Source of the DNA: Cyathus striatus
Lineage: Eukaryota > Basidiomycota > Agaricomycetes > Agaricales > Nidulariaceae
DNA: 64,000 nucleotides
Assembly: GCA_025738555.1 (NCBI GenBank)
Contig: JAOVFP010000012.1
Location: 2,418,001 to 2,482,000 of the forward strand
Reading direction: 5' to 3'
The notes beneath the pieces were generated by a model, which saw only the letters and a list, made by a program, of their open reading frames with translations, was not told the origin of the DNA and did not search any database. A program made the position numbers and the translations under genes. Position 1 is the first letter of the stretch. Each line of letters begins with the position of its first letter. Below, piece by piece: positions 32,996-58,594 of the stretch.

Positions 32996-33001
32996 CATAA
33001 C
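32996..33001. repeat. Target-site duplication CATAAC, left
   Basis: Directly abuts the TGAGTGG tip; identical to 58589-58594. Confidence 0.82.
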
Positions 33002-34790
33002 TGAGTGGTGTCAGCCAGCGTAATCATTTTTTGCCCTGGTAAAATGATCGCCACAATCATTTTACCAGGGCAAAAAATGATCACTTAGGTGATCAAATGT
33101 GATCATTTATCATAGAACTAGCAGAATATTACTATGCTCAAATGTGATCATTTACCATAATACTAGCAGAATATTCCCATGCTCAAATGTGATCATTTAC
33201 ATAGAACTAGCTGATTGCTCATGCTCAAATGTGATCATTTACTATAATACCAGCAGAATATTCCCATGCTCAAATGTGATCATTTACATAGGACTAGCTA
33301 ATTGCTCACACTCAAATGTGATCATTTACTATAATACTAGCAGATTGTTCCCACGCTCAAATGTGATCATTTACAGTAGTACTAGCAGGTAATTTCCACA
33401 CTCAAATGTGATCATTTATCATAGTACTAACAGATTGTTCCCACGCTCAAATGTGATCATTTACAATGGTACTAGCAGGTAATTCCCATGCTCAAATGTG
33501 ATCATTTCCCATCGTAGCAGATTTTAAAAGATGATCAAATGTGATCATTTACTATAGTACTAGCAGGTAATTCCCACACTCAAATGTGATCATTTACAAT
33601 AGTACTAGCAGGTAATTTCTACACTCAAATGTGATCATTTATCATAGCACTAACAGATTGTTCCCACGCTCAAATGTGATCATTTACAATGGTAATAGCA
33701 GGTAATTCCCACGCTCAAATGCAATCATTTACCATAGTACTAACAGATTGTTCCCACGCTCAAATGTGATCATTTCCCATAGTAGCAAATGTTAAAAGAT
33801 GATCAAATGTGATCATTTACAATAGTACTAGCAGGTAATTTCTACACTCAAATGTGATCATTTACAATAGTACTAGCAGGTAATTTCTACACTCAAATGT
33901 GATCATTTATCATAGCACTAACAGATTGTTCCCACGCTCAAATGTGATCATTTACAATGGTAATAGCAGGTAATTCCCATGCTCAAATGTGATCATTTCC
34001 CATTGTAGCAAATGTTAAAAGATGATCAAATGTGATCATCTACAATGGTACTAGCAGGTAATTCCCACGCTCAAATGCGATCATTTACCATAGTACTAAC
34101 AGATTGTTCCCACGCTCAAATGTGATCATTTCCCATAGTACTAACAGATTGTTCCCATGCTCAAATGTGACCATTTACAATAGTACTAGCAGATTGTTCC
34201 CACACTCAAATGTGATTACTTACTATAGTACTAGCAGATTGTTTCTACACTTAAATGTGATTATTTATTATAATACTACCAGAATATTCCCATGCTCAAA
34301 TGAGATCATTTACTATAATACTAGGAATATTCCGATGCTCAGATGTGATCATTTACTATGGACTAGCAGAATATTCCCACACTCAAATGGATCATTTACC
34401 ATAGTACTAGCAGGTAATTCCCACACTCAAATGTGATCATTTACAATAGTACTAGCAGGTAATTCCCACACTCAAATGTGATCATTTACAATAGTACTAG
34501 CAGGTAATTTCCACACTCAAATGTGATCATTTATCATAGCACTAACAGATTTTTCCCATGCTCAAATGTGATCATTTACTATAGCACTAGCAGATTGTAC
34601 CCATGCTCAAATGTAGTCATTTACCTATTACTATTCTATTATTTCTGTAATCAAATATGATCATTTACCATAGTACTAGCAGATTGTTCCCATGCTCAAA
34701 TATGATCATTTACTATAATACTATCAAAATATTCCCACACTAAAATCTGATCATTTATATATAACTACAAACATTATGGAATTATTACAA
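33002..34790 (+). repeat. Left terminal region: tip, palindrome, 45-bp subterminal repeats
   Basis: Palindrome at about 33023-33084. From about 33085 the unit CAAATGTGATCATTTACnATA, GTACTAGCAG and TTCCCACACT repeats every 45-46 bp to about 34760, roughly 37 copies, with some ATGATCAAATGTGATCAT variants. GATC-centred palindromes within each unit (ATGATCA/TGATCAT) suggest regularly spaced transposase-binding sites (inference). Open frames with NVIIY strings are repeat artefacts. Confidence 0.88.
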
Positions 34791-34803
34791 ATTGCTTGTT
34801 TTA

Positions 34804-37800
34804 TTAATCCTCCAGTTCAAATCTATCTATATGATCATCAATATCTTCATCATCAGTGTCTTTATCAATGTATTCATCAACATATTGCTTATCCAAATTT
34901 ACCTTCTCATTAACGTGATATAAATTATCTTCCTCATCTAACTCTTTTTGATAATTTTCTTCATCAACATCATTCACATCATCCACATCCTCCCAATCAT
35001 TGCTGTCTTGAGCTGTCTTTTCATAGGCCATAGGGATAGAATTGAGATATTTAGCTATCCAATCAGGGGCACCATTCTGTTTTCTAAATGCTGGTAGCCA
35101 CCAATCTAGACAACTCTGTGCTAGCTTCTGACAAATTGATGCTTGTTTAAGAGCATATGCTTTTACCCCTTGCTTAATATCACCTTCTGTATTATTTTTA
35201 TAGCTTCTTATATCACTTATACTTCTCCACCATTCAGTTTTCCATTCAAGATATTGGATAACTCTTCGCATCTCTTCCTGAAGAATCAAAACTTCTTCAG
35301 CCCATCTATCTTTTCTTGCATGAGACTTTGCCCATTCAACTCTCAGACTTTCATTTATTTGATCTTCACTGTTTTCATTATCAGAAGAAGCACGTGGAAT
35401 TAGCCATATCCACGATATTTCAAATCTTCCATTACTTGATGTATCATCTGGATCCTTTCCAGGCCCTCTAATGTCCTCTTGCTTTAGTTCTCGAAAATGT
35501 GACTGCCAGTTTCCATGTGGTTCAAGCACAGATAATGCTGCATATGCCTTTCGATATTGATCAGCACAGAGCTGTATTTTATTATAAAATCTCTGATACA
35601 GTGTTCTCATACGTGTATTTGGTTTATTTCCTGTACCAGATGTATTTAACAGCTTGAATTGCCATAATGTTGAAATCATACGACGCAGACGTCTTATATT
35701 TGCTAATGCATCTTCAGCTTGTGCCTTACGCAGTCTTAGTTCTGCATTAGCAAGTTTTTGTAATCCAGGGTAATTTTGAAGATTCACTGAAATTGTTGAG
35801 GGCAGATAGATTGGAAACATTTCAGCTTTAATAGTATTATTATCTGTATTTGATGCATTTAGATCACATAGTGGTATTATTGCTGGAGCCAATATAGTTG
35901 CCACTTCTGGCATATAGGTGAGTTGTACTTCTTGCCATTTTTTAATACGAGTGGCTAGAGATATACATTTATCCTGAATATCAGCTAGTTTTTTTTGATG
36001 TTAGTGACTTTTTTTCTAATTTTGAAACTTCAAGTTTAAGTGCATGTCTAAATAAAAATGTAAGTTATGGATATATAGTAAGTCTTTTAACTTACTGTTG
36101 TTCTTCAAGCTCAAATGCAAGAATGAGAAATTTTGTTTGAGTCATTTTATGTTTGGGGATATCTCCTCTTTTAGCAGCAGCAGCCTCTTCATTAGTTAGT
36201 TCAAGTCTTACATCTTGCAAACTTGTAGCTATAAGAATATTAGTAATATTATTATTAGTACTATTATCTTATTTTAACTTACTGCATTCTGACTCATGAT
36301 ATGGATTTTCACCTTTATGGCTTTCATGCCATACTTTAATTTGAGATTCCCACTTTTCAATCATGTCTTCTGGAAATGTAGCACTAAATTTCTCAAATAT
36401 TTCTCTGTGCTTTTCTTTCATTGACAGAGCCTCAAGGTATCGCCTTAGAAAATGTTTGCCTGTAAAGACATACTTAGTAAGAAGATAAAGTAAATAACTG
36501 AATCAAGTTATGGAAACCAATTGTTTTTATAAAATTCCATGCAATCCAATGATCATTTAATACTTCATGACGGGAAGCTGGACCCATCTCTCGTGTACTT
36601 GGGCGGAGATGATTACTACTAGACCATGTTGTCTCAATCTCTTCTCCACATGTTCGGTCAGCTCCTGGCATATAAGCTAAAGCAAAGGTACTACGGCATG
36701 TGCTTCCATGGCCATTTATGTGCCAAGATGGAACTCCAACATCAATTTTGGTTTTAGAGGAAATTCTCATAGACTCTGGAAAGTGTTCAATTCTCTGTCT
36801 CAAATTTTTAGACCACTGACATCCAATATCATAAGTAACCATGATCCATGGAAGTTCAATATTTGAAAGTGTTGAAAGTATAATATAGTCAACATTGCAG
36901 TACCTTTTAAGTGATATAGTAGCTTTAAGCATGATAGTGATAGAGCTTACTTACCGTTCACCTTTTTGTAAATCACCTGCACCATTTCTGCGAATTAAAG
37001 AATGCATTGAACATATTACAACAGCTGTTCCAGTAACTGAATGACCTGGAGCTGAACGTATACCAGCCTGAAGAATTGCATCATGTGCTGATTCACATGT
37101 ATTAATCTAATTTTTAGTTAATCATAATCAGGAAGAAGAGTATAAACTTATAAGTACAACAAACCTCAGGATTCTCTTTGTGATTTTTAAGGTGTGTTTG
37201 ATAATTTTGTTCTTCAACATAAGGTTCCCATCCAGGCATAAGCTCTATATCTTGAATGCCACGTTCTTTACAACTCAATTTAAAATTTGCATCAATAGCC
37301 AGATACATAATATTTAAGAATCTACAGTTGATGCATGTTAACAACTTCTATTTATATATAATGAAATTGTACATGCCTCAATGATGGATCTGTGTTTTCC
37401 CAATCTTCAGGAAGATTTTTGTTGGGATGTGGACATGCAGGGCATTCAATTGTCAACTCTCCATTTTTTGTGCCCTTTATTCCTTCAGTAAACTGACCTC
37501 TACCACCACACTTACACAGAAAAAGAATTCGCCACATTCGGACAACATGTCGAAATTCATTGTAACGATTCTGAAATTCATATTAAGTTATTATGTATGA
37601 TATCTTATACAAATATAAGATATTACTCACTATATCATCCTCCAATTTGCATTTATCAGTTTTATGGGATAGAGTGTGATACCAGTCATATAATGTTGTC
37701 TTTCCCTGCAAGTTAAGTTCATGAAATGTATCAAGACATTCAAAAGTAAAAACAGTTTGAGGACGAATAAAGCTAGCTGGAAACCATCTTGCACGTAGCA

Positions 37801-38748
37801 ATTGAGTATAGCATGGAATAATTTGTTTTCTGCAATCACAGAAATTAACTGAGACTGTGTGAATTCCAGTACTATCAACCACCACTAAATTGACAGTAGA
37901 TTCAGCTGGATTATGACAGTTTTCTCCTCCATGTCCAAGCTGAATAACAAGTCCTAAATTCTTCAAAGAGTCTTTTTCAAAATAGAATTCATTCCATTTC
38001 TATGTAATGAGTATAATAAGCAAAATATCAAAAACTACATGTGGAAGTTGCATCATACCTCTATTCGATGAAGTGGTAAATTTGCATGTTCTAGAACTAT
38101 GCAGTTTTTGCATCGCAGTAAACCACCATTCAAACAATCTTTACACTTATAATAGCCATATTCTTTCTTACACAAGTAGCATTTATCTTCAGTTATATAA
38201 TCTCCTTTACCATCATGGCGGAGAAGTTCATCCAGAAAATCATCTTGATATTTAATCCAATCCTTTAATTTTGCCTATATAATTTGTTATAATATACACA
38301 ATTTAATATTCAATGTACCCACAGAAGATTTTTGATCTCGTTGACGTTTTGGCTTCAATGGTTGTTCACTGTCATGTACTGTTGAAACCAATTCCTCATT
38401 TTCATCAGGTTCTAATGTTTCAGATGGTGTCTCTGTATTCTTTGTAGTTTTTTTTTCTTTAAGAGAAATTACATTGCGCTGCCTTTGAAACTCCTTTGTT
38501 ATCTTACTCTTGCCATGAGTTTCCACAATTGTTCGTGAAGTAATTCTTGATGAGCGTGAGCTAGATCCTTGATTGTGTGTTGTTGTTGAGTGACTTGCTC
38601 TATTTCCACTATTAACAGCTGATGATGTTCCAGATCTTAAAACATGACGGAATTGAACAGTATTTGTAGCAATTGATGATCGTCTAGAACGTTTGTTGAT
38701 AGTAGCTTGAGCTTCAGCTGTAGGAGAGACGTTGCGCTTTGAGGGCAT
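34804..38748 (-). CDS. KDZ transposase with CxC2 cysteine cluster, ~1150 aa, one frameshift
   Basis: Main transposase of the 25.6-kb element. Exons: 38748-38323, 38274-38059, 37999-37631, 37570-37377, 37321-37165, 37106-36955, 36903-36518, 36459-36283, 36228-36096, 36047-34804; all phases close. A basic Ser-rich N-terminus is followed by the zinc cluster CYLCKKEYGYYKCKDC..C..C..H and PLHRIEKWNE, typical of CxC2. The KDZ core has LAIDANFKL, ELMPGWEPYVEE, GAGDLQKGERY, VTYDIGCQW, PSWHINGHGSTC, MPGADRTCGEEIE and RHEVLNDHW. The C-terminus is a coiled coil followed by an acidic tail (DDVNDVDEEN). Odd points: the intron at 37376 begins GC rather than GT; the donor at 38322 is GTGGGT; one extra A in an A8 run (about 35989-35996) shifts the frame between LTSKK and LADIQDK. 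Without that base the gene is complete, so a sequencing error is plausible. Confidence 0.88.
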
Positions 38749-41700
38749 TTCTGTAGTGAGGAAGTGCTAGAACAAAGATGGATTAAGAGATATCTCAATG
38801 AAAGCTCTATGGGTATTAATAAGATGGCTCTTGTGCGGTGTGCGATTCACCTCATTGTCACCTTCTGGTAGCTGCTTGAACCGAACCTAATATCTATTAA
38901 TAATCTGTGTGATCGTCCTCATGCTGCCCTTGAGGCATCGAATAAATGGACGGACACAGAATGTCACCTGAACCGTCTGATTGAACTGCCTTTACACACA
39001 GTGAACTATGAATAATATACGATGGAATCAGGCTTCGATTCTACGATTATACCTTGTCCTCCAACGACCATCTGACAAACCCTGACCCTGACCCTTATCC
39101 ACCTCATCCCCTCCACCCTTACTCGAACGGAAGATAGCTTGAAATTGAAATATGGAGTCTTGTCATTGGGGCAGTGGAAGCGTAGTGGATGTTGGCAAGA
39201 ATGTCGTGGTTGGGTGCTTAGAACCCAGTCAGAACATAGTGTTTGACTCGCACACATAAGTATGTGGGCAGGAAAGGGGGGAAAGTCAAGAGCAGAGACA
39301 AATCAGGTTGAGTTCTATGCGTCTGGATCAGTAATGACAGCGTCACACGACACTGGTCATGTCTCTTGTGGGATCAGAGAAGGTGCTTTATGGGCACATG
39401 TTCAAGCCAATACTATTAATATAGTATCGACCCCTCATTCAGGCCATGGTGCGAATGGCAAGGTGTCATATATTGCTCACATAAGTAAATCTATCACTTC
39501 ATCGAGTACGTATCTCAAGATCAGTTATAAATTAAATCCTGTAACTACACTATTCAGTAACTAGAAGCGCTAGGACATGCACTCACATCAGTACGCGCTC
39601 GGTTACAGGAATTCCCGGAGTTAACGGCTCTTTCTGCGGCGCGCATCAATAGTGCGTGATGGCATTGGTACAAGTTCTTGGCTGTTTCACGCGCCGTTGT
39701 CCATGTGGTTTTACGCATGTAAATGCAATAGTAATAAGCTGGCATATCAATATGTACGGTACTGGAAAGTGCTCAGAATAAATCACATAATTTCATGTGG
39801 CTATATCCAATACCCATCCATCCGAATGCATAACTTGGGTGGGTTTAGATATGATTCATGGTTAGAATATCGATATCATTTTATTTTTGGATCGAAGGTG
39901 AAAAGTAACGTACATTTAAGTATGAGATCGCACACTACTGCAATCTATCTATGAGATAATCGATGAATGAGTAAGCACAGACTGTGTATCATTGACATAA
40001 TAGGATTTGTTTAGTAACGAGATAATGATCATTATGATCTAGAGTCCTGGTTACACCTGTGCGGTATGCGACTCCTTGTCTTAGTCTATACTTATTGGCT
40101 CTACTTCGCATATGGCTCAAATACTACTTATCTAATCTGGTTGGCGAATGAATGTTAATTCTTTCACTAGTACTCTGCTCCAGTTCCGAGGTGAAGTGAT
40201 TATGTGATACAGTTAGGGTTGCTAACCGTAACGCCACCTGCTATTGTTCACCTTCTCCATAGTGCTGCTGTGAGGCGAGTTGCCCTCAATGCTGAGGTAC
40301 CTTGGGGTGCCAAAAATGGAAATTGTGGCGCCTCAAGGTACCTTCGAAACACCGAGGCTAGGCCGGCCTTAAGGTCCGAGACCAAACAAAAACAAGCGAT
40401 ATTCTGCCACCCGATTGGCTGTTATCATCGATTAGCGCTCAATTTCAAGACTACAGTAGTACATCGCGACGCGCGTCCAGCTTCAATCACTTCACTGAAT
40501 TAATAGGGCATATATTTGTTTTAAAAAATATACATGAATACCAATATATAGTAGTACCTATATATGTGGAAAATACAGGAATTCAGAATTACGATGCCCC
40601 GAAGTTATGACACAGCCGAATTATTTACACCTGGCTTTCATCCAATCACAAATTCAATTTGCACGTGCTACATCTATGATGAATACGAGTAACAGGGCTC
40701 ATGTCCGAGTTGTTCATCGAACAAATACATATATTTAGTGTACCTAACATATTATTTATACACTATCTGTTCTCTGTCATAGGTTTCAATTCGATAATGG
40801 ATGAGTTTGCATATTGCAGGTTTGCTGATAGCTCAGAAGACTTATTGAACAAGGTTGAAGTATATTCGAAAAATTAGAAAGAAGATTGTAATACTTACAC
40901 TCAACCACTATCTACATCAAAGCTAGTAGCACCATAGCATACAAGAAATATGGGTAGTATGTACCTAGTCGATGAACTGACGAAGGGTGAGAGACCCTTC
41001 GCAGCCGTCAGTTGACTGCCGATTATGCTGAACAACTAAGCTAAACCAAATTCGTAGGGTACCCCCCTACCCCCTTACCTAATACACGTACCAGATCGAA
41101 GGATCTGACACCTCTTGCTTCATACCATTCGGAGCGGCATAAGCAAATTTTTTTCGGTGGGCGTCATACTATATCTATCTGCCGTGTAAGCCTCAAGCCA
41201 GAGACTATTCACAATCTTATGATTGTAAAACACTACTGCAATCTTCACAGAGGTACTGGTGGTGTGAAGTAGTCTTATACTTACAACCTGTATTCTACTT
41301 ATGCATTTTGTAATGTTATATACATCTTGCATCTTACAGTTGTTGCCAGTGAGTGAATATTTGTGATCTTATCGCAGGAAGTCGGTATGTATTATAACCG
41401 TAAACCATAAACAGCTGTACTTGTACCCGTCTCATATCATAAACGATTCGAAAAATGTCTATATGGTACGGTTATGGCCAAAATCTGTATCATAAACTGT
41501 TATGGTACGGTTGGCAACCCTAGATACAGTCGATCTAGTGACACACTCTAACATGATGAATGCGCCGCTGCATGTTTCATACAATTATTACTGTGATTTC
41601 CAACTTGTCTAGGTCCATACTGTCCACTCTCTGCGTTTCCTACTAGCCCTTCCCACTTCTGGAAATTCACTATAATTCCAGTAATTTACACTCCCCCGGG

Positions 41701-42313
41701 AGGTCTGTACAGATCCGCACGGATCCGCACGGAATCCGTACGGACCTGAAAATTCCGTACAGATCCGTACAGATCCGTGAGGATACCATACAGAATTTAT
41801 ATAGTGGCTATTATTATTATTAGGGGTGATGATTCTGCACAGATTCCATACATATTCTGCATGGATCCTGTGTGGATTTATGCAGAATCTGTAAGATGTG
41901 TTTAATACCTTAATTTTCCAGTAATTTACACTCCCCCTGGGAGTCTGTGCAGATTCCATGCAGAATCAGTTTTGGTCTGTACAGATGCAAATTTCTGTGT
42001 GGATTCTGCACAGATTCTGCACAGAATCAGTATTGATCTGTACAGATGTAAAAATTCTGTATGGATTCCACACAGATTCTGCATGTATCCATACAGAATC
42101 CACATAGTTTTAAGTAGTAATAATATTTCACAGATTCTGTGCAGATTCTATGAAGACTTTTAATTTATAGAACTTATAGTGCAATCACCTACATATTTTA
42201 GTTGTTTAAAGTAACTCCTGCTCTCAAAGCTATTTAAAATAGTGTGATAATTGTTAATTCATAATCATTTCTACATATACTTGGCTAATATATAAAAACA
42301 TGACTTTATTTAT
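38749..42313. other. Interior of the giant element without a supportable gene
   Basis: Upstream (promoter) side of the KDZ gene at 38749-39000. A CCCTGACCCTGACCCTTA tract lies near 39081. 39262-39564 and 40204-40503 are open on the plus strand but show no splice or family support. 40270-40350 has a short inverted pair of GAGGTACCTTGGGG and CTCAAGGTACCTTC. The remainder is unstructured until the CCGTACGGATCC module at 41690. Confidence 0.4.
41690..42160. repeat. Dense small palindromes of GATCCGTACGGA / AGATTCTGTGCAGA type
   Basis: Words GTACAGATCCGCACGGA, CCGTACGGACC, TCCGTACAGATCC and then TCTGCACAGATTCTG follow each other continuously, CpG-containing in the first half and TG/CA-containing in the second, as if the second half had lost CpGs by deamination. 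Twin markers CCAGTAATTTACACTCCC at about 41669 and 41918 show a 250-bp unit. The same family is at 49615-49850. Confidence 0.65.
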
Positions 42314-44642
42314 TTAGAGGACTATATCTTCAGCTGGAAAGTCATCATCCTCCTCTGCTACATTTTCTTCCACTTCCAACCCATTAGCTTCCTGTTTTCT
42401 TCTTCTTTCTTGTCTATCTATAACATGTTTACTGTGATAAAACAACATGGTATGCAAAAACCAATCAAAATTGCTTGGAGTCATTTTTTTTAGACTAGAT
42501 TCAAAGCCACCAAGCCAAGCATTGAGCTGTTCACATGCCTATGACAAGTAGTAGTTTATGAAATATTTTTAAATAATTATAATATGAATCTCACCTGTGT
42601 ATTAAAAGCCCTCTTCAAATATGGATTTCCATTATTGTCAAAATCAGTTATAACTAGATTTGGAGCAGATCCATCTAGTGGTGCTGGATTGCAAAATATT
42701 CTGCAGAGAAAGTCTTTAACTCTGTGATTTGTATAATGATAGCTATCTACACTAAGTCTTGTAGTTTTTTTCCAGGTTTCCCATTGCTCTCTTCTTGCAT
42801 CATTAAGAAGATATCTTAGTACCAAACATGCCTTATCAATGCATACATAGTCTGGCCTGGATTCTTCAGTAGGATATACTTCCTCCAAAAATTTCATAAT
42901 ATTGTATGGTGATTCTGCCCCTCAAATTTTGTCCAGGCAATAACAACACCACAAGGTGCACATATTGTTTCCACACAGTAGAATTTACCTAGAGTAAAGT
43001 AATTCTTTGTTTTATTATTAGTTGACTGTTGTTGATCATCATGTGGCTGAACATTTCTTGGTCTAACTGTATTCCATGGGAGTTGTTCTCCTGGACGCTG
43101 AAGCATTCTTCTTACACCTGCATGATGAGAAGTGTTGCGAGTGGATTGAAACCTCCTCCACTCTTCTTGGTGATTATTGCAAGCTTGGGTACCCTGCTTT
43201 TTCATGTTAGTGCACCCTTGAATACGACAACATGCACCATAAAAGGTTTCATGTACTTCACAGAAAACTCCTCCACGTGCATTATGTAACTCACTTGTAC
43301 ACTCTTCAAATGCACAATGTGTTGGACCCATCATGATACCATCCAATACAACCATTTTGACAGGGGCATATTCATTCTCATTTGTTGCTGTATTGTCACT
43401 TTCAATATCTGCTACTGCTCTTTGTACATTTACAGAATTCATATCCTCCTGTGTACTTTCAGATTGTACAAGATCAGGAACTGCTCTATTTTCATCAACT
43501 CCTACCACACCAGCAGAGTCAATATCTGATATTGCATTAGATCTACTTCTATAAGCATGTGTGCACTCAGAACATGTATGCTTATCAGCAGATCGAATAA
43601 TTCCATTATCACCAAGTAAAGAAAATGCTTCACGTGTAAGATTATCAATTGAAAGACCATCTTCAACTTCCAAATTTATATCTCTTGAAGAGGCCAAAGC
43701 TCTAACAGTTTCTTGAATATATGCTTGCCAAACATGTCTGCGGGTGATGCTGTGTTCATCAGAAAAGCTATTGTTCCAAAACTCAGTATAAGCAGCAGCT
43801 GATGCATGAAAGCTATAAATTGCATTTACAGCTGCATTGGAAAATGTTCTGTCTACCCAAACTGACTGTCCTACTTTAACGTACTTTGCAGAATTGAGGT
43901 ACACTCGAGTACTCTTTCAATTTGGAATTGAAACTTTTTCTCTGTCAGCTGAGTATTGTGTTTTGCATCTTTTGCATACTCCTGTGAGTACTTGAACATT
44001 TTTTATAGTTTCAGTACCCCGAATTAAAGTAACATGAGGTATGTCCTGTGCATCTGTTGATAAGTGTAATGCCAATGAGGGGCATGTATTTGTTACACAT
44101 ATAGAAGTTACAGGGCAAATAACAAATGCTGGTGAAATCTCTTTATGAGATACTACTTTTAAATTTCCTTTAAATCTTCCAGATGATGCAATTGGATTAA
44201 GCTTTAGAGTCTTCATCAAGTTATCTAAGCTCAATGCCAAAATTGTATCCCTTTCATCATTAGGCTCATCTTTAAATAATTTGTTACATCTCTCTCCAAG
44301 ATGAACTTGCAATGCTCTAGATAAAGTGAGCATCCAAGCAGTCATTTGTACATTATTCTCCTCTGGATATCTAGGATTGAATTGCCTTGCATGAAGACTT
44401 AATAGATCACTGTTGTGTGTAACTGTAAATAGTATTACCAATGCTGTTGATAGGGAAATTTCTGAGCTATAATTACTACTGATAAATTTGCTGAAAGTTT
44501 TAAATGAAATGTCAGGGAAGGGCTGCATGTTTGCTGAAACTCCTGGCAATATCATTAAAATAACTGTGGTTATACTTCCATATTGTATCCAATTATTAAG
44601 TCTCAAAAGTGTGGTGGATATGAGAGTGAATTCCATTAGCAT
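42314..44642 (-). pseudogene. KDZ-associated gene with CxC5 and CxC6 clusters, two lesions
   Basis: Exons 44642-42595 and 42538-42314 (intron GTGAGA..CATAG). The order matches the agaric CxC5/CxC6 family: CPVTSICVTNTCPSL and GVCKRCKTQY (CxC5), the SxxAYTEFWN region, HTCSECTHAYRSRS (CxC6), then the core VKMVVLDGIMMGP, a Cys/His-rich block (CAFEEC...CRIQGC..), VETICAPCGVVIAWTKF, VYPTEESRPDYVCIDKA, DSYHYTNHR, CNPAPLDGSAPNLV, KRAFNTQACEQLNAWLGGF. Lesions: TGA at 43917-43919 inside the conserved region between VSIPN and KSTRVYLN, and one G missing from a short G run near 42914, before SPYNIMKFLEEVYP. With both set aside the model is about 757 codons. The start is uncertain; 44642 is the first good ATG and an upstream exon may exist. 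Role within the element: probably the second DNA-processing or DNA-binding component (inference). Confidence 0.8.
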
Positions 44643-44798
44643 GGAACATCCAGTTACAAGATTATACAGAACACATTTTTTATGGAGGAAAAAATGTACA
44701 AGGATTTGACATATGAAATAGAGTACAGAGATTTCAAATTTTATACTACATTGAAAGATTGGAGACATCAAAAAAGAGAAATTAAAACCAAAATCAAC

Positions 44799-47979: not shown

Positions 47980-48560
47980 TTGCCACCCATCGCTCATCAC
48001 CCTATTCTTAACCATTCCCTCCTATCCCATCATTGCGTATGTTGGCAGTATCAACACACGCGAGTCGACGGTACACCTATGCGTAAGGCGTGGCCCTGGC
48101 GTGCGGAAGGAGGAGTGGGAGGGGGAGAGCGACGGCGAAGCGAGGCGATGGTGGAGGGGGTGGGGAAGCCATGGCGCATATGCCACGTCAATGCGTGTAT
48201 GTCGATGCTGCACCTATACGTAGGCGTGGCCTTGGCTTGCAGAAGGCGGAGGGGGAGGGGGAGAGCAGAGGCGAGGCGAGGCGAGGGTGGAAGTAGTGAT
48301 GCCACGTCGACGCACGCATATAGGCGCACGTTATGCGTAGGGCGTGGCCTGGGCTTGCGGAAGGAGGAGCGAGGAGGGAGGGGTGAAGGTGGGAGTGGAG
48401 GGGCTCGGATGCCACGTCGACAGGCCTATGCGCCTGTGCTTGTGAGGGGGGGGGGCGAGGGGGCGAGGGTGGAAGAGGTGCGGATGCCACGTCAACGCAC
48501 ACACATAAGCGTACGTCGACGATACGCCTATGCGTAGGGGGGGTGGTGTAGCGCGGGGAG
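47980..48560. repeat. GC-rich minisatellite, units of roughly 110-130 bp
   Basis: Each unit contains TATGCG(T)AAGGCGTGGCC, a GGAAGGAGGAG purine tract and ATGCCACGTC(A/G)A(C/T)G; copies begin near 48075, 48215, 48320 and 48500. It contrasts sharply with the AT-rich surroundings. Long open frames on both strands come from the GC bias and change frame between units. Confidence 0.7.
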
Positions 48561-49156
48561 GGAGGAAGAGCTGGACAACACGACGCCGACGCCGACGCCG
48601 TTCATGCCAGCGGCGTTGCCATCTTCTGACGCTGCAGCACGGTCGGTTAGCGAACCCCACCACAGACGAAAGGGGGGAAACGGGGGAGGAGAGAAGACAG
48701 GAGGGGGGCTGAGTGACGTGGGCAACGGTGGTGTTGACACCGTCCTTGCCGTGGTGCCGCCGTCCCCATGACGCAGGGAGAAGGGGCTGGAGGGGTCCGG
48801 AGGACGTGGCGTCACCGCCACCATGCCGCAGGGGGGGGAGGTGGGAGGAGGGAGGGGTGTGTGGTCGCGATGCAGGGGAGGTGGGGGGCGGGACGATGTG
48901 GTGTTGCACATTGAGGCCGGGGAAACGTTGAGGTGGGAAGAGCTTGCGTCGTTGTTTTGACGCAGCAGCATGAAGGGGCGGCGGCGCGGGTGGTGGTTGA
49001 GATGAGAGAGCCTGGTGATGGCCGTCGAGCGAGAGCTAGGGCGTCTACAAGACCATAGACGACGCTGTGGGAAGGTCAGATAGCGGGGGATGGCGAAGCG
49101 AGTGGAGGAAGGGGCGTACCTGGTGACGGGCGACGTGGCATCAGTCTTGAGGGTGA
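48561..49156. other. GC-rich, purine-rich sequence without a gene
   Basis: Continues the GC-rich island, with (GACGCC)n near 48582-48600 and many GGGGGAGG tracts. GAGGCCGGGGAAACGTTGAG at 48911 is an isolated copy of the 17-bp unit found at 49157. Overlapping open frames on both strands have the same GC-driven composition and are not trusted. Confidence 0.5.
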
Positions 49157-49340
49157 CGCTGAGGCGGGGGACACGTTGAGGCAAGGGACACGTTGAGGCA
49201 AGGGAAACGTTGAGGCGAGGGACACGTTGAGGTGAGGGACACGTTGAGGCAAGGGAAACGTTGAGGCAAGGGACACGTTGAGGCGAGGGAAATGTTGAGG
49301 CGGGGGAAATGTTGAGGCGGGGGAAATGTTGAGGTGGGAA
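49157..49340. repeat. 17-bp tandem minisatellite, about ten copies
   Basis: Unit TTGAGGCAAGGGACACG, with variants GAGGCGAGGG, GAGGTGAGGG, AAACG and AAATG. Seventeen is not a multiple of three, so the repetitive protein-like frames across it are artefacts. Confidence 0.88.
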
Positions 49341-49479
49341 GAGCGAAGAGGAGGGGGAGTGTTGACAGTGGGAACGAAGAGCGACGACAGTGGTGACGCG
49401 TCACCGGTTATCGGTTACCGACGACCGGTGACAGAGAAGACAACGAGCGTTACGTTGTTGGCGGCTATGTTATGGCGTC

Positions 49480-49565
49480 AATGACACACTGGCTCAGTTA
49501 GTTAAGCGCGCCATATATTCGATGACTAAGCCATAGCGTAGACTTGGGTTCGAAACATATCCGAT
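49480..49565 (+). ncRNA. tRNA-like module (SINE head or tRNA pseudogene)
   Basis: TGGCTCAGTTAG at 49490-49501 fits a Pol III A box, and GGTTCGAAAC at 49547-49556 fits a B box, 46 bp later. The flanking bases do not fold into clean acceptor and T stems, so a functional tRNA is unlikely; a tRNA-derived SINE head followed by the AT-rich tail (49570-49615) fits better. Only one copy was noticed in the window. Confidence 0.4.
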
Positions 49566-49614
49566 GCAATTTGTTTTATTAATATTACAATAAATGTATA
49601 ATAAATACTAATAA

Positions 49615-49850
49615 AAGTCCGCACGGATTCTGAGGAAGTCTTTGTTACGGAATTCCGCGTAATCCGCACGGAATTTTCCATTCCGTATAAATCTGTGCGG
49701 AATCCGTAAGAATTCCGTACGGAATATTTCCTTCATTATACTGATACCTCAGCCAATTCTCGACCTCCCATATTCCGTACGGATTCTGCGTAATCCGCAC
49801 GGATCTGTACGGATTCCGTACGGATCCGTACAGAACGCCCGGGTAAGCGT
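49615..49850. repeat. Second module of CCGTACGGATCC-type palindromes
   Basis: Words CCGCACGGA, GGAATCCGTA, AATTCCGTACGGAAT and GGATCTGTACGGATTCCGT run through the segment, as at 41690-42160, with CpGs retained. Possibly a small hairpin transposon; clear ends were not found. Confidence 0.6.
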
Positions 49851-51223
49851 AAAGAGCTCTATAATTCAAACAAAATGTACTCACTAGTAGGAAAGGCAAT
49901 ACACATTGATCACGAGTTTAGATTACTTTAATAATACTTAGAATAGTTTCCTGATTCTAGTATGATTTAGTATTCTAAGTTCCCATGTACAAAGATTTTA
50001 ATAAGTTCGAGGGCGCGCGAATATCAATTCTTTTCAAAGGTAAACTAAAATAGAATGACTTGTATATTTTTAGAACATGCTAGGACTTCGACAGTTTATC
50101 AAGCACGAATTCAATCAAATACAATTCAATTCGGTACGTATATTTCTGTGTCTAATTCTGTTCTGATACACCGCCCTGTCTGTGGGGGTAAGAATGCCCA
50201 TGCAGTTCCTGGTGTTTTCTTCCCCCCTCGCTTGTCTATATACAATTACTCATGCGCTTATTTACAGCTCTCTATCTACTGTGCGGTCTTACCCATATCG
50301 TAACTTAGGCCTAGACTAGTAGTGCATCAACGCCCGGCATTAGCAATTATGTGTATAACCAATCACTGCGGCGCTTCCACATTTCCCTATCTGACGCCAT
50401 ATTACAACGGCGCGCGCTCACGCGGGCGCTTACATCAGCGCCTTCCTAATTGGGAAGTTGTGGCAATGATGCGTGATGCGCTCTCATCGATCTCTCATTT
50501 CCTCGATAACTCATCATCCTAACGGTCCTCCATAGTCATCCTTTGTTATCTTTCAGTCCGAAATATCCCCACATCATACAGCCTCAAGCTCATGTTATTT
50601 CTTCTGGTTCTAGGTCTAGGATCAGTCATTTCATCATATTGCGACTCTCGATGCCGGTATGTTGTTCTGGGCTCTAGTCTGCTTGTAAGTGCGAATTTCT
50701 GATATGCATAGTTTCTCATATATCGAATATATTTTTAGATTGAAAAAGGTAAAGTATTCGTTAAGTGTATAAAGTTCAGATTGAGAGGGAGTTGCCATTG
50801 TTTATGTTTTATGTAATTGTTTTTATCCCTTAGTAGTTGGTATGGGAGGCAACCCGGGAGCTCGGTCCCTCCCCTTCGTCTCTACCTTCTCAGTCTGAAG
50901 TCCATCGAAAAGGATGCGAAAATTAAACAGGTACGTTTGAATATAATTACATGTGTATCAATTACAATATGTATCAGTGATAATTAGTCTTCGCAGTTTA
51001 ATTCCCATTCGGTTAGGCAATACAAAATTTAAGTACCAAAGTCCATTATTCAAACATTAGTGTCCCCAGCCTCATAGCCCATGCCACGTCTAAACCTTGT
51101 TACACCGCAGACCATCATTAGGCATCAATCTGTGACACGCCCATTCCTTCTCAACTGCATCACACATTTGTTTACCTTTCCATTCCATCCTCGCACCCAC
51201 CACACCAACTGACCACAGACTCC
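49851..51223. other. Interval before the 621-aa gene
   Basis: 50055-50522 has short open frames without support. 51061-51223 is CA/CT-rich with many CAT and CAC words and is probably the promoter/leader of the gene starting at 51224. Nothing else recognised. Confidence 0.35.
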
Positions 51224-53529
51224 ATGACCTGGGCTGACGACGACCAATGGAAGTGGCTTCGTGCCAGAATACCCAGTTATATTGAAGCTAAGGAAAGCGG
51301 ACAATCAGCACCTTGGCTAAGGGGTATGTATGCTGATTGGGAGACTAAGTGGGGCGCACATGAGGATCCTGTACAGCGAAGAGAAATGCGTGATGTAAGT
51401 AATAGAAATCAATTAGCATGTGCAAATGACTGACAATGTTTCAGAGACTTAGCAGTTGGTTCAGAAATCACATATGCAAATCCAAAGCTAAAAGCTCGCG
51501 AGGTCTTCTTGATCCTAGTAGGCCAAAGTGTGTTAAACCAGAAGCTAAGCTTCGAGAATGGCAGGTTTACCAAATGCTGTATGGGGATTACGTGGACGAA
51601 CTCATCGAGGACGAGTGGAAAGAGTACGAACGCTCCCATCAAGATGGTCCCAAGCCGCTGAAGTCATACTTTAAGTTTAAAAATGAGGCGATCCAACATC
51701 ACTACAAGCAAGAAACTGAAGCTGTAAAGAACGAGGTGAAAGAACACCTAGATATGCTACGTCGAGAAGGCAGAGAGACGATGCCAGGGATAGAGAGCGA
51801 AGCTGAGTGCAATACTGCATATGAGGAGTGAGTTATGCACATATGTTCATGATATGCTGTCCCTAGTGCTCACTGTTCTTTTAGATCGATAAACAAGCTT
51901 GATGCAACCCTCGAAAAATGGATTCCAGGGCTGGCAAAGTTGACTGGATGGCATTTCACAGTTATCGGAGGAGGGCCACGCCCAAGCCGTGGAGGAAAGT
52001 TAGATACAGTGTTGTAAGTCAATGTCAAATGTGGTTTGTAGTATTCACTCACCAAAATCAAATAGTTACCACTACGGCAGTAATAAGGACGGAAACAACT
52101 GGGAGAACTGGATGGGACATGATGACTTCGAGGCAAACATTGGCTACAAGTATGACGACTTTCTACGTGAATGCTTCTGTAAGTGTACTCATATTTCAGT
52201 AGAACACGCTAATTAACTTACTATAGCTGTAGAAGACTGCAACTCACGCAGCCTTTCTGTATCGTTACAAGAGCCTACAACACCCACCACGAGCTCTGAG
52301 GACGACACCAGTAGTAAAGGTAAAGGAAAGGAAGAAGTGGGCGAGTGTAGTCCAGAACCTGAAGAGGAAGTCACTGACACATCCACTCCTGCCGAATCTG
52401 AGGCTGAGAGTCTCGACCATGACACTGGGAGCAACGTAAAGCATGGACACAGGAAGCCGAAAGACAACAACACTTCCTGTGAGGTGGCTCCTTGTAGATC
52501 TTCCCATATAGCTTCTGGTGGCGATAGATCTCCTACAGCTGCAGCAGGAAGTGGTAGCGTTGAAGGGTGCATTGCTGTCTCAATTGACATAATCATTCTG
52601 TCAATCATAATCTATTTCTAGAGCGAATTCCCGGCTACCGGATGACGCAAGTTTTAATGAGTCCAATGACCCGTGCATAGAAGGTGCAGCGACTGACAGC
52701 TCAGCGAGCAAAGCAAGTACCATAGCGAGCCCTAGCAATCAGGAGGGCTGCCTTACTCAGTATGTTTGTTCCCTTTTGTTATCTTTTGACATTGTGTATG
52801 ACTTTCGTACACCTCCCAGGAGTTCGGGTTCTGCTGAGGACCATGATATTAACTTGTTACCCAAATATGCCCAGAAATACATCGCATATTTGAGGGGTGT
52901 GTCATCTGACCCATGCTGGCAAGCGCTTGTGACAGAATGGAAGTACTTTGAGTTAACGAAGCCTGCAGAATCAGTAAGTAATCACTCCTGGTCCGTCCTC
53001 ATGAACTACACTAAATAAACTCCGATTTGATCGCAGGCTTTTCCTACTGCACACCGCCCCAAAGAAGTGTCCTGGTGGATTCGACGTCACCGCAGTGCAA
53101 CTGCAGTACCAAATGTAGTCATAGCTGAATTCAGTAGTACATGGGCTAAGTGGTGGAAGCACATCCAACCCGAATGGCGTAAAGATAGTCTTGTTAGGTT
53201 GGTGCCGTCAGGTAACTGTCAGTGGGGTTCACTGTTTCATGGAGGGGCTTTAGGAATATGTAGTATCATAATGTCTCTGTCATGGTGGGTCATTGGGACT
53301 AAACTGTCACCGGATGATTCACTAGAAGAACTCTGGGATGTGGTACGCGATGTGACATGGGTCTTACAGCAAGTTGGTTCTCTCCCAGAGCGAGTGGGAG
53401 GCAAACGAGGTGTTGAGGCGATAGCAGGTGCAGAGAAGGCAAGTAAGCGGTAAGTGATGCTTTCAATACTGATCGAAGGAATGAAATTGACTTACTATCA
53501 ACAGCCGAAAGAAGCAGGCAGCTCGATGA
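51224..53529 (+). CDS. Intact nine-exon cargo gene, 621 aa, basidiomycete family of unknown function
   Basis: Exons 51224-51394, 51445-51827, 51885-52013, 52066-52178, 52227-52566, 52622-52759, 52820-52973, 53037-53449, 53505-53529; total 1866 nt, every phase closes, TGA at 53527. The start MTWADDDQWKWLRARIPSYIEAK and the next exon's RLSSWFRNH, LREWQVYQMLYGDYV, FKNEAIQHHYKQE, GWHFTVIGGGPRPSRGGKL and YDDFLRECF resemble a large agaric/bolete family (SSWFRHH proteins) of unknown function that I know from many genomes. The C-terminal part WWIRRHRSA...WAKWWKHIQPEWRKD also fits. The middle (about 260-410) is Ser/Glu-rich and disordered. It is the only gene on the plus strand of the giant element and lacks lesions, unlike the transposase genes, so it is likely a captured host gene or a conserved accessory function (inference). 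The donor at 52567 (GTGCAT) is the weakest junction. Confidence 0.78.
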
Positions 53530-56524
53530 GGACTCCAGATTCTTTAATATTGACGGAATGAATGTGATTCCTTCACTTGAACTTCACTCGTTATCTTCCT
53601 TTGCTTATACTCTTTTTAATTGACTTACTACTTTTAATTATTATGATCACCTTAATTCATTAATTACGATCTTATACATACTACACTCATTTACAGTAGC
53701 TTCAAACCCACTCTACACTCTTTTACACTCACTTAAACTAATACTTTATTGCATGCCAATTCAAATAATACCAGTTTTTAGAATGTTTACTATTGTTTGT
53801 GGATGTGTGTCAGAACAGCAAATGAAAAGGCTATCGAGAGAATGCACAAGAACAATCAAAGGCCAAACTGTTGGTATCGGCGGTTCTCATCCAATTCAAA
53901 TCGGTAACCATGAATGAACTTAAAAGGTGGGTGTCAACCTATAACCGGGGCTGAGACGATCACTAAATATGCTTACTATATGCCCAGGCCCCAAATGATC
54001 CCTATCTGAGCCCTATAATCACATCGTTCCGAATAAGCTGCGAGTAGAAGGGCAGTTATTGATAAGACATGAGAATCTAAACATAGGTCATCAGTAAGTT
54101 ATGGAAAGGGGATACTAAAGAGCTCACCTTGATTGAGCCAAATGTGACAGAGTGAACATTGTGTGTTATTGTGAGAGTGTGTTTGTTGTTGGGTGATAGC
54201 GAAGAGCAAGAGATTGTGATGGTGTGAGTACAAGCAGTTGATGGAGGCGGCTAGGGAAATCAAAGCAAGACCAACTGTGATGAGTGTGAGGAACCGAAAT
54301 TATAGTGCGTGTTAGCTGTTTGTCTTGTTGTCCTTAAAGGCAGGTCTACTGGCCATGATCATACACTTACTGTAACTCATTGGACTTTAGAGTGACTAGC
54401 CACATTGTATGAGCCCTATCATAGTAAATATGAAATTGATAATAGCCTAGAAATGAAATGATCAAGAAAACATAATGACAACGAACCAATTAAATACACC
54501 ACATTTCCTTGACCTGAGTCCCAGTTCCTTCCATCAATCAGCATGTTTTATGCTTAAGTTAAACATCCATTCAATGTGCTGCCATGATCGGAATATTGGT
54601 CTTGAAGTCATGACGAGTAGCTTGAGGTGTAGAGAGCCTGACAAGGTAAAACCCAAACACAAGTGTCTTGAGCCATCTGAATGGCGCATGGTACCCAAAA
54701 ATGGTGAATACAGTCTAAAACACTTGGAATCGACAAAAATGTAAAGCAGAGGGGTAAGATAAGGAGTAACCGAGACACATCGAGATGTATCACCTGTCTG
54801 CATCATGTGATGTTTGGCAAAAGCTTCCCACTGTTTGGTGAAGCTGTGTCGTGTCTGTAAGGCCACGCATTAAGAGAAACATGAAGAAAAGTAACAGTGC
54901 GCTTATGCAGCACTTCATAAGGCCAAATTAAAAGTCTCATGAGTTTTATTTCAATTATCATAATTCATAGAATATAATTAATATAAATAGAAATAGAAGT
55001 AATCTACTGGGTTATGCCACATTAGAACACTACCAATGTTGTTCTAACTTCTTTAGAACAAATACAATATCGTTATAATGCTTGGTAAAATATTGTTATA
55101 ACGAATCCAGCTTCGTTTAAATGCTGCCAACTCCATTTTGACTTCATTCTAACAGATGTAGCAATCGTTAGAATGAATACAGTATCATTATAACGAATCG
55201 AGCTGTGTTAGAATGCTACCAACCTCGTTCTAACATCCTTAGAATAAATAAAGCCTCATTATAACGAACCCAGCTTCATAAAAATGCTGCCAACTTCATT
55301 CTAACGGATGCAGCTTCATTAAAATGAGTACAATGTCGTTCTAATAAATACAGCTTCGTTTTAACCAATATAGTGTCATTCGAACAAATAAATCAACATT
55401 ATAATGAATAAGTACAGTGTCATTACAACAGTGATACATTTTAATTTCTAATTACACTACCAGCATCATTCTACTAATGAAATCTTTATTGTTATACTGA
55501 CACTTGGCGAGTTAGATATTAAAATATGTCATTGAATATTTGAATACTCAATTAAACTTCTGTGTTCATATAATTGCATTTATATATAAGCAAACCCACA
55601 GGTTACCTGCAACCTGTAGCACTCATGCTAAAAATACCCATAAGTTCACGGGTAAGGGTTCAAATGGGTACAGGTGTGTGTCTGACTAAAAATACCCGCT
55701 GGTTACCCATGCACTTCCCTAGTTACACTAGTAAACAAACTACTTCCTCGAAGAAAGTACCCGGTGTAATTATCATATATCTCCGCCATTTGTGATTCAT
55801 TCGTTTCGTAAATTGGCATACAGTTTACACTTCTTACAATCTCAAGAACGACGTATTGACAATACATTTCGGCGCTTTCTAACTAGTGCTATCGAGTTTT
55901 CTACTATTTCTTCCACAAACTAACAATTATTATCATTTCACCACCATGTGTGGTCTATTTTTTTTGTAAATTGATATATAGCTAGCACTATATCGAAAAT
56001 TGAGATGGATGAATTGAATTTTAATTTTTTTTTTGGTGTTCAATTTCTAACAATATCTATTTTTATACCATTCATTCCCCACACAAATGATTTATTATCA
56101 TTTTTAGTATATGATTAGCCCTCATTGCAATGTTTCAAATAATATATTAATCAGATAATTCGGACTTTTCCTTCAAATATTATGATTTATTGCTTCCTCT
56201 CTACCCCCCACTAATGATCTAAGACTTTAAAGTCTAAACTCCTTTCTTGTATTAATGTATGCACAGGCACATTCCATTTGTAATTCAAGCTGTGTGCCTT
56301 GTATATATACTACTACTACACACCACACTGATATACTATACAATTTATTTTATTTCTCCTTATATATCTTTTATTTAGTGTGAATGAAATGAAGTCACAA
56401 TAGCTTTCTGAATAGGAGTATTTTAAGAAAATGCACAGTGACATGAAACAATTATGTGAGCAAGAGTGTTGCAAAAGAATGTGCACTTAAAATATAGACT
56501 TGTGAATGTATGTGAGTACTAGAG
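53530..56524. other. AT-rich interior between cargo gene and right terminal array
   Basis: 55020-55440 is a field of short degenerate repeats built on CGTTATAACGAAT, CAGCTTCGTT and TTCTAAC words (period irregular, about 30-45 bp). 55590-55760 contains several GGGTA/TACCC words resembling those at 59750 and 62150. 54475-54870 is open on both strands without splice or family support. The rest is unstructured and T-rich. Confidence 0.45.
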
Positions 56525-58588
56525 TATAATTGTAAATGATCTGCTAGTACAACTTTAAATGATCACATTTGAGTGTGGGAACAATCTACTGGTGCTATGA
56601 TAAATGATTATGGGAACAATCATCTAGTGCTATAGTAAATGATCATATTTGAGCAACAGATCAATTTGCTAGTATTATTGTATATGATCACATTTGAGTG
56701 TGGGAATTACCTTTTAGTGCTTGTAAATAATCACATTTGAGTATGGGAATTACCTGTTGGTGCTTGTAAATGATCACATTTGAGCTCAGAATTATTACCT
56801 GCTAGTACTATGGGAAATAATCACATTTGAGTGTGGTAATTATCTACTAGTACTATGGAAAATGATCACATTTGAGCATGGGAACAACCTGATAGTACTA
56901 TGGAAAATGATCACATTTGAGTGTGAAAATTACCTGCTAGTACTATTGTAAATAATCACATTTGAGTGTGGGAACAATCCACTAGTACTATTGTAAATGA
57001 TTGCATTTGAGCATGGGAACAATTTACTAGTACTATGGAAAATAATCACATTTGAGTGGAATTATCTGCTAGTACTATGTAAAATGATTACATTTAAGTG
57101 TGGTAATTATCTGCTAGTACTATTGTAAATGATCACATTTGAGCATTGGAACAATCAACTAATACTATAGAAAATGATCATATTTGAGTGTGAAAATTAC
57201 CTGCTAGTATTATTGTAAATGATCACATTTGAGCGTGGTAATTATTTGCTAGTACTATTGTAAAGGATTGCATTTGAGCGTGGGAACAATCTGCTAGTAC
57301 TATGATTAATGATCACATTTGATCATTTTTTAACATTTGCTAGTACTATGGAAAATGATCACATTTGAGCATGGGAATTACATGCTAATACAATGGAAAA
57401 TGATCACATTTGAGCATGGGAATTATCTGCTAGTACTATTGTAAATGATCTCATTTGAGTATGGTAATTATCTGCTAGTTCTATTGTAAATGATCACATT
57501 TGAGCGTGGGAACAATCTGCTAGTACTATGATTAATGATCACATTTGATCATTTTTTAACATTTGCTAGTACTATGGAAAATGATCACATTTGAGTGTGG
57601 AAATTGCCTGCTAGTACTATTGTAAATGATCACATTTGAGCGTGGGAACAATCTGCTAGTACTATGGTCAATGATCACATTTGATCATTTTTTAACATTT
57701 GCTAGTACTATGGAAAATGATCACATTTGAGTGTGGAAATTGCCTGCTAGTACTATTGTAAATGATCACATTTGAGCGTGGGAATAATCTGCTAGTACCA
57801 TGATTAATGATCACATTTGATCATTTTTTAACATTTGCTAATACAATGGAAAATGATCTCATTTGAGCGTGGGAATTATCTGCTAGTACTATTGTAAATG
57901 ATCTCATTTGAGCATGGTAATTATCTGCTAGTTCTATTGTAAATGATCACATTTGAGCGTGGGAACAATCTGCTAGTACTATGATTAATAATCACATTTG
58001 ATCATTTTTTAACATTTGCTAGTACTATGGAAAATGATCACATTTGAGTGTGGGAATTATCTGCTAGTACTATTGTAAATGATCTCATTTGAGTGTGGGA
58101 ACAATCTGCAAGTACTATGATTAATGATCACATTTGAGTGTGGAAATTGTCTACTAGTACTATTGTAAATGATCACATTTGAGTGTGGGAACAATCTGTT
58201 AGTACTATGATCAATGATCACATTTGAGTGTGGAAATTGCCTACTAGTACTATTGTAAATGATCACATTTGAGTGTGGGAACAATCTGTTAGTACTATGG
58301 TAAATGATCACATTTGATCATTTTATAACATTTGCTAGTATTATTGTAAATGATCACATTTGAGCATGGGAATTACCTGCTAGTACTAGTGTAAATGATC
58401 ACATTTGAGTGTGGAAATTGCCTACTAGTACTATTGTAAATGATCACATTTGAGCATAGTAATATTCTGCTAGTTCTATGGTAAATGATCACATTTGATC
58501 ACCTAAGCGATCATTTTTTGCCCTGGTAAAATGATTGTGGCAATCATTTTGCCAGGGCAAAAAATGATCAGCATGGCTGACACTTATG
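56525..58588 (-). repeat. Right terminal region, inverted copy of the subterminal array
   Basis: Same 45-bp unit in reverse complement (AATGATCACATTTGAG, TGGGAACAATCTGCTAGTAC), about 43 copies, then the palindrome at about 58508-58570 and the tip. A higher-order subunit containing TGATCATTTTTTAACATTTG is interspersed every few units. This side is slightly longer than the left array. Confidence 0.88.
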
Positions 58589-58594
58589 CATAAC
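58589..58594. repeat. Target-site duplication CATAAC, right
   Basis: Directly abuts the right tip, which reads CATAAGTGTCAGCC inward. Confidence 0.82.

Follow-up and report, generated by a model that had tools for sequence, protein, structure and literature searches.

A probable CxC2-KDZ, Kyakuja-like transposon of Cyathus striatus with a nested CxC5/CxC6 element, long inward terminal arrays and a conserved partner gene

Introduction

KDZ elements occur widely in mushrooms and have received little study. In this paper we analyse one of them in a 64-kb window of the genome of Cyathus striatus (C12:2418001-2482000), in which a large KDZ transposon, which we call the outer element, contains a second transposon nested inside it. 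Positions given without a contig are numbered in this window, and genome searches cover the 107.45-Mb assembly of 24 contigs (C1, C2 and so on).

As described in the accessible parts of the reports cited, the Kyakuja lineage (Kyakuja-1_LB and Kyakuja-2_LB of Laccaria bicolor; Kojima 2025, PMC12730594) makes 7-bp target duplications and has termini 5'-CA..TG-3' without terminal inverted repeats (TIRs), and the second gene of the families described there encodes a TET/JBP dioxygenase. The Cryptococcus elements KDZ1, KDZ2 and KDZ3 are about 9-11 kb long and carry CxC1, with TIRs of 139-241 bp; their duplications measure 8 bp in KDZ1 and 4-8 bp in KDZ2 and KDZ3 (PMC12810828). Characterised KDZ ends are mentioned in PMC8290104 as well, with the details in its supplement. 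In Pleurotus ostreatus CxC2 accompanies KDZ while CxC5/CxC6 does not, and a CxC5/CxC6 insert in poMSH4 is a 6.8-kb multi-copy segment that its authors link to Copia elements (PMC7641404). Among plant CACTA/En-Spm elements, where the protein TNPA binds subterminal repeats, Tgmt* is 20.5 kb long, with 4 and 24 subterminal repeats, a tnp2 transposase, a 3-bp duplication and CACTA tips (PMC2613891).

Results

The outer element occupies positions 33003-58588 and is 25,586 bp long including the nested element, or about 17.4 kb without it. It is bounded by a perfect 7-bp target duplication, CATAACT (7/7), at 32996-33002 and 58589-58595, the left junction reading CATAACT/GAGTGGTGTCAGCC and the right junction GGCTGACACTTATG/CATAACT. 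An initial annotation of the window had placed the element at 33002-58588 between copies of a 6-bp CATAAC; the direct repeat at both ends was seen correctly, while its length is really 7 bp and the element starts at 33003. The inverted arrangement of the ends that had been described there is borne out. The tips, GAGTGGTGTCAGCC on the left and CATAAGTGTCAGCC on the right when read inward, are each followed by a palindrome of about 63 bp (tip and palindrome together at 33003-33086 on the plus strand and 58506-58588 on the minus strand) and then by an array of 45-bp units (33093-34757 and 56624-58498). The termini are GAGTG...TTATG, and the inverted similarity extends across the 130 end bases compared.

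To represent the site without the element we joined 303 bases from its left and 288 bases from its right, keeping the target once (591 bases). The joined flanks match nine places on C12 at 87-91% identity over the full 591 bases (over 590 in one case), and at all four of the nine sites that were fetched the alignment runs ungapped through the junction, with the target present once as CGTAACT. These empty sites are paralogous, not allelic: the flank belongs to a repeat local to C12, of which there are ten copies or more, and the target is uninterrupted at the sites. Since the joined flanks match contiguous paralogous sites, we conclude that the outer element is one insertion; the movement of the segment as one unit, which had been proposed from the window alone, is supported by the 7/7 duplication together with these uninterrupted sites. 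Short elements bearing the same tips are common, so one could imagine that two short non-autonomous copies inserted independently on either side of unrelated DNA. We give this practically no weight: the ends are one of GAGTG and one of CATAA type, face inward and share a perfect 7-bp duplication, and the empty sites, unbroken at exactly that junction, refute it. Nor do we believe that the assembly has joined two distant element halves. Large near-identical repeats are prone to misjoining, and the exchanged flanks of the C9 copies described below could be misjoins, but a misjoin is not expected to yield matching duplications and contiguous flanks at nine paralogous sites, which makes such an artefact extremely unlikely here.

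The flank repeat itself (32700-33002 and 58589-58890) has at least nine further copies on C12 between 2.35 and 3.34 Mb. Several differences of the window's copy close to the insertion are changes of CG to TG or CA, and since both copies of the duplication read CATAACT, the CG-to-CA change probably predates the insertion.

The ends recur throughout the genome. A tip pattern of 32 columns (26 fixed bases, at most 3 mismatches) occurs 57 times, as against 0 for the reversed pattern used as a control; 41 occurrences have at most 2 mismatches, and the remaining 16, with 3, resemble other families. Among the 41 places, 20 make up 10 inward pairs, namely the outer element and nine pairs of 0.9-3.8 kb. 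Where flanks were compared, for 8 of the 10 pairs, 4 pairs show 7/7 duplications (CATAACT here, CATGAGC, TACCCTT and GTCTCAC). Copies sharing both tips thus exist; the initial annotation had named their absence as a refutation of its reading, and this check did not refute it. From sequence comparison we take the proper unit to be one with a GAGTG end and a CATAA end. Two short elements without a duplication have ends of one type, C5:6040732-6044497 (CATAA/CATAA) and C13:1577917-1581214 (GAGTG/GAGTG), and appear to be rearranged or recombined copies.

With 14-base tips, the GAGTG type is found at 142 places (control 1) and the CATAA type at 378 (control 0). The excess of CATAA tips may reflect families with CATAA at both ends, or faster decay of GAGTG ends. 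Pairing of these tips was counted on C1, C2 and the first 6.2 Mb of C3, for which the two tip listings are complete, using the first 100 of the 142 GAGTG and the first 100 of the 378 CATAA places; the other 69 listed GAGTG places, three of them on C3, lie beyond the end of the CATAA listing and outside the count. Of the 31 GAGTG ends in this region, 24 form inward pairs with CATAA ends (23 distinct), and 17 of the pairs are 2.3-5.0 kb long. The same count with one strand flipped gives 8 pairs, all of at least 18 kb, so that a large spacing counts only when it comes with a target duplication. Among the large pairs with flanks compared at both ends, a set to which those of 23.4, 32.5 and 38.9 kb do not belong, one passes, C2:2326621-2363686, of 37,066 bp with AGAACAT 7/7. 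A 38-kb pair on C3 and a 36-kb pair on C1 were considered as giant elements; their ends belong to different families and share no duplication, and we treat them as chance pairs, in keeping with the flipped-strand control.

What does the outer element encode? Its KDZ transposase gene lies at 34804-38748 on the minus strand, with several introns and approximate exon bounds. The KDZ domain (PF18758) is found at E 1.9e-37, with 129.5 bits against a cut-off of 26.6; a second exon matches KDZ at E 2e-4, which alone is below the cut-off, and the CxC2 cysteine cluster (PF18803) is found in the same gene at E 5.3e-42. A KDZ domain, an associated cysteine cluster, inverted ends and a target duplication, the features of the KDZ superfamily, thus occur together. 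The protein matched 237 proteins, the best in Cyathus striatus at 60% identity; the 120 of these that were listed come from many mushroom-forming species and include a Laccaria bicolor CxC2-KDZ protein 47% identical to the outer one. Judged by shared features rather than by a lineage tree, the outer element is probably a CxC2-KDZ (Kyakuja-like) DNA transposon.

Once the nested element and one copy of the latter's target are subtracted, the outer element measures 17,397 bp. Five other copies with the same tips are similar in length, four on C9 (C9a-d; 17,645-17,704 bp) and one on C2 (17,194 bp), and by this comparison the size of the outer element without its insert is normal within its family. 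The other three C9 copies are 99.6-99.9% identical to C9a and the C2 copy is about 97% identical outside the arrays, while the KDZ genes of the C9 and C2 copies have 75-76% DNA identity to that of the outer element.

The length in excess of this size is a transposon of its own, at 41679-49859 (8,181 bp). Long genome matches to this part of the interior share both end points, and its junctions read TATAATTC/CAGTAATTTACAC ... GTAAAGAGCTC/TATAATTC, with an 8-bp duplication (8/8) at 41671-41678 and 49860-49867. Close copies are found on C7 and C10. In the C7 copy, which has its own duplication CCATTTTG (8/8), 6.0 kb are 100% identical and the other 2.2 kb 93% identical, and the C10 copy is 99% and 96% identical; duplications are thus present in two of the three copies examined. 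Two genes on the minus strand lie inside, a CxC5/CxC6 protein gene at 42317-44798 (bounds approximate) and the gene of 807 amino acids (aa) at 44799-47480, whose DNA is common to other nested copies; matches longer than 5 kb that span both genes were found for 8 or more of 25 scored candidates. The CxC5/CxC6 frame is interrupted by a TGA at 43917-43919, for which an intron and damage are both possible. In the pieces scanned, Pfam gave neither a KDZ domain for the nested element nor any match for the 807-aa gene. Nesting may have come before or after the arrival of the outer element at the C12 site. The initial annotation had counted two KDZ-type genes inside the element and regarded the 807-aa gene, which it called intact, as accessory cargo; one KDZ gene does belong to the outer element, and the other, CxC5/CxC6, sits with the 807-aa gene in the nested transposon.

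The remaining gene of note, of 621 aa in the same annotation, lies at 51224-53453 on the plus strand. It can be read stop-free through introns, in a hand-checked exon model of 642 aa chosen among about 20 open ones, and an alignment suggests two additional short introns. Intactness, as had been claimed, holds in this sense, and its status as a passenger does not. We compared KDZ loci (38 loci, in 45 rows that include 7 extra pieces of the same loci, from scoring 38 of 368 candidates) with partner loci (47 places from 64 of 279 candidates scored; 61 of 96 rows used, the rest being further exons). In 33 of the 38 listed KDZ loci, the outer element included, the gene lies downstream in the same orientation, within 13.1 kb in 32 cases and at 36 kb in one, and for 33 of the 47 listed partner loci the distance to a listed KDZ locus is at most 60 kb, where chance would give about 0.35% per partner locus. 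This conserved linkage identifies it as a core gene of the outer family and not as a passenger, and we call it the partner gene. Between the window copy and C9a, changes in two of its exons by codon position number 42/28/63 and 49/34/65; the third position changes most, as expected for a protein under constraint.

The partner protein itself resembles little else. A protein search, which reaches only relatives sharing short exact words, returned a single homologue, a Cyathus striatus protein of 690 aa that is 41% identical over its full length. Pfam gives no domain for it, with weak matches below the cut-off only, and we take a match to Apolipoprotein A-I (E 0.017 and 0.029) to be a long-helix artefact. 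AlphaFold models are poor, with a mean predicted local distance difference test (pLDDT) score of 50.7 for 690 aa and 66.4 for 67 aa, the 690-aa model reaching block means of at least 84 only at residues 1-50. Foldseek found nothing significant with these models (best E 1.1 and 5.1), and weak helix-turn-helix-like matches were not used as evidence.

Is the partner needed for transposition? It might instead be a dispensable, linked anti-silencing or regulatory gene, as is supposed of the TET/JBP genes in other Kyakuja elements. TET/JBP genes travel with Kyakuja and Zisupton in Agaricomycetes, according to the accessible part of PMC12730594. Moreover, the partner homologue was found only in Cyathus striatus, whereas CxC2-KDZ proteins occur in many mushroom species. 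On the other hand, the gene is near-constant in the family, and no TET/JBP or other Pfam domain was found in the pieces scanned, although these tools might miss a distant dioxygenase; a genome-wide search with PF12851 was silent, as were its controls. We regard the odds of dispensability as a little short of even.

The terminal arrays share a 17-bp core, CTCAAATGTGATCATTT. With at most 2 mismatches the left array has 37 forward and 0 reverse copies, the right array 0 forward and 41 reverse, and the interior 0; with at most 3 mismatches the counts are 37 and 43, all inward, so that the left array lies on the plus and the right on the minus strand. Spacing is 42-47 bp save for single gaps of 88 and 80. 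The C9 family, whose repeat unit of 102 bp is otherwise different, keeps the core 15-16 and 14 times, again inward (16 and 14 in C9a). Around the tip pattern the core occurs within 1.5 kb in all 30 end loci examined and in a single orientation in 29; at the other locus (L016), 6 of 19 cores have the other orientation. That the core alone is conserved, and in one direction, is the pattern that a protein-binding site would give, and from it we infer that the core is a candidate binding site.

The initial annotation had gone further and proposed that the segment may carry genes in the manner of the giant cargo elements of other fungi, that is, that KDZ ends mobilise unrelated host genes by a logic like that of Starships. 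In favour of this idea, the outer element inserted as a single unit, and the C2 pair of 37,066 bp also has a perfect duplication; most of the latter's interior lies outside the two 600-bp samples from which its content is known. However, in genome searches 41679-49859 turns out to be a repeat in its own right and the 621-aa gene to accompany the KDZ gene, so that the candidate cargo genes are genes of a nested transposon or a core gene of the family. Of the two samples of the 37-kb copy, one matches Ty3/gypsy RNase H (E 6.7e-25) and the other holds an open frame to which Pfam matches nothing, and the pieces scanned inside the outer element contain no Pfam family above its curated cut-off, of host type or otherwise, except KDZ-associated domains. 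We have therefore dropped the cargo reading, which we consider very improbable.

Some smaller parts of the interior may be mentioned. The stretch 38767-41670 has seven reading frames of 75-109 aa, none with a Pfam match; a match to Herpes_U15 for a short frame (E 0.09, below the cut-off) is taken as chance. The stretch 49913-50979 (about 1.07 kb) has partial matches of 71-91% at ten other places. Three of these are no more than 5.2 kb away from KDZ or partner loci in the lists, so that the stretch may derive from the old backbone of related KDZ elements and not be an insert. Further dispersed repeats, at about 68-85% identity elsewhere, lie at 55098-55723 and 55768-56361. An Rfam search gave no match at gathering scores.

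Elsewhere in the window, a second element at 21096-26187 (5,092 bp; ends CATAAGTGCCAGCC and GGCTGGCACCCCTC; 55/115-bp arrays) has related tips, yet the 17-bp core is absent from it. Its flanking 7-mers, GCTCCTG and ACTCCTG, match at 6/7, and directly upstream lies a coding segment for a kinesin motor (20041-20496; PF00225, E 2.2e-17), a gene that the element may interrupt. At 62500-64000 another copy with arrays of the same type apparently starts and crosses the end of the window. A further KDZ-type gene is indicated by an open reading frame at 9071-10072 with the KDZ-associated CxC4 cluster (PF18717, E 1.9e-34).

Discussion

Our analysis indicates, with high confidence, that the segment is a two-gene CxC2-KDZ (Kyakuja-like) transposon that entered a C12-local repeat in a single insertion with a 7-bp duplication, and that a CxC5/CxC6 element is nested inside it. 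The bounds, the duplications, the empty sites and the nesting are directly observed, as are the conservation of the gene pair and of the core with its orientation.

A number of observations weigh against this interpretation or against parts of it. Among the 41 tip places with at most 2 mismatches, 21 have no listed partner end, and of the 8 tip pairs with compared flanks 2 match at 6/7 and 2 lack a duplication, the latter because both their ends are of the same type. None of the five copies of 17.2-17.7 kb retains its own duplication. Instead the flanks on C9 form a chain in which the left flank of C9a matches the right flank of C9c (TCTCACA, 7/7), the left flank of C9c the right flank of C9d (GCAGTAC, 7/7) and the left flank of C9d the right flank of C9b (6/6). 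The matching partners lie in opposite orientations, and this exchange fits inversions between copies, though misassembly of near-identical repeats would look identical. The nested copy on C10 has no target duplication, and the C2 copy of the outer family has just 7 and 5 cores. Five of the 38 listed KDZ loci have no nearby partner, and 14 of the 47 partner loci have no listed KDZ gene. When C9a is compared with C2, third positions are not in excess among the changes in one partner exon (7/6/4), nor in a KDZ exon (8/6/8). No structure or domain in the searches described favours DNA binding by the partner protein, and 38767-41670, unmatched elsewhere among 38 candidates scored, remains an unexplained part of the interior.

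How might such an element work? The KDZ transposase is transcribed toward the left end and the conserved partner toward the right end. The KDZ protein would cut at the tips, and the arrays may be bound by the transposase or by the partner, so bringing the ends together. The same-tip elements of 2.3-5.0 kb would be non-autonomous and use the KDZ and partner proteins in trans. More specifically, by analogy, the partner may bind the 37 and 43 inward copies of CTCAAATGTGATCATTT and pair the ends for the CxC2-KDZ protein, the arrays, of nearly 2 kb each, then serving as a handle strong enough for the element to tolerate insertions that add half its length or raise it more than twofold, as in the 25.6- and 37-kb units with their perfect duplications. 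We offer this combined proposal tentatively and think it rather less probable than the contrary.

Exact ends, duplications and natural empty sites are now given for a large KDZ family, which also supplies a testable candidate for a second transposition protein together with a candidate binding site for it. More generally, the locus illustrates how a nested element, together with a core gene that had gone unrecognised, can pass for cargo. Provided that the assembly is correct, the exchanged flanks would make inversion breakpoints of the near-identical 17.7-kb copies, which share one chromosome.

The comparison with known systems can be summarised as follows. The Starships of Pezizomycotina are, like the outer element, large fungal mobile units, but, as the accessible literature describes them, they are tyrosine-recombinase based, reach about 700 kb and carry many accessory genes, none of which is seen here: only KDZ-type domains are above the cut-off in the pieces scanned, and the extra length is a nested transposon. 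With Kyakuja (PMC12730594, as far as accessible) the outer element shares 7-bp duplications (7/7 in 4 of 8 compared pairs and in the 37-kb C2 copy), a KDZ transposase, a host in the Agaricomycetes and a second gene. However, Kyakuja has 5'-CA..TG-3' termini, no TIRs and TET/JBP as its second gene, whereas here we find GAGTG...TTATG, inverted subterminal sequence, long arrays and a second gene without a recognised domain. Like the Cryptococcus elements (PMC12810828), the outer element is mobile, with inverted repeats and a KDZ transposase bearing a zinc-chelating CxC domain; those carry CxC1, and the accessible part of that report mentions neither arrays nor a partner gene, while the outer element has CxC2 and both. 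The long inward arrays and the uncharacterised partner protein are its unusual features, and in the KDZ literature covered, which extends to neither the 2014 KDZ-defining paper nor the supplement of PMC8290104, we found no KDZ element described with such a partner gene or such arrays.

The poMSH4 insert of Pleurotus ostreatus resembles the nested element in being multi-copy and coding for CxC5/CxC6, and the two are perhaps of the same kind. The accessible part of PMC7641404 describes no target duplication for it, while the nested element has clear ends and, in two of three copies, 8-bp duplications, which suggests that CxC5/CxC6 inserts like that in poMSH4 may be independent transposons. Finally, the closest likeness in proposed working is to En/Spm: both elements are large, with subterminal repeats and a transposase plus a second protein, and repeat binding is shown for En/Spm (PMC2613891, as far as accessible) and predicted here. 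The outer element is no CACTA element, a group with target duplications of 2-3 bp, having 37 and 43 repeats, GAGTG/CATAA tips, a 7-bp duplication and a KDZ domain where Tgmt* has 4 and 24 repeats, CACTA tips, a 3-bp duplication and tnp2. Nevertheless, the conservation and orientation of the core agree with a two-component system of the En/Spm type, in which a second protein would bind the subterminal repeats.

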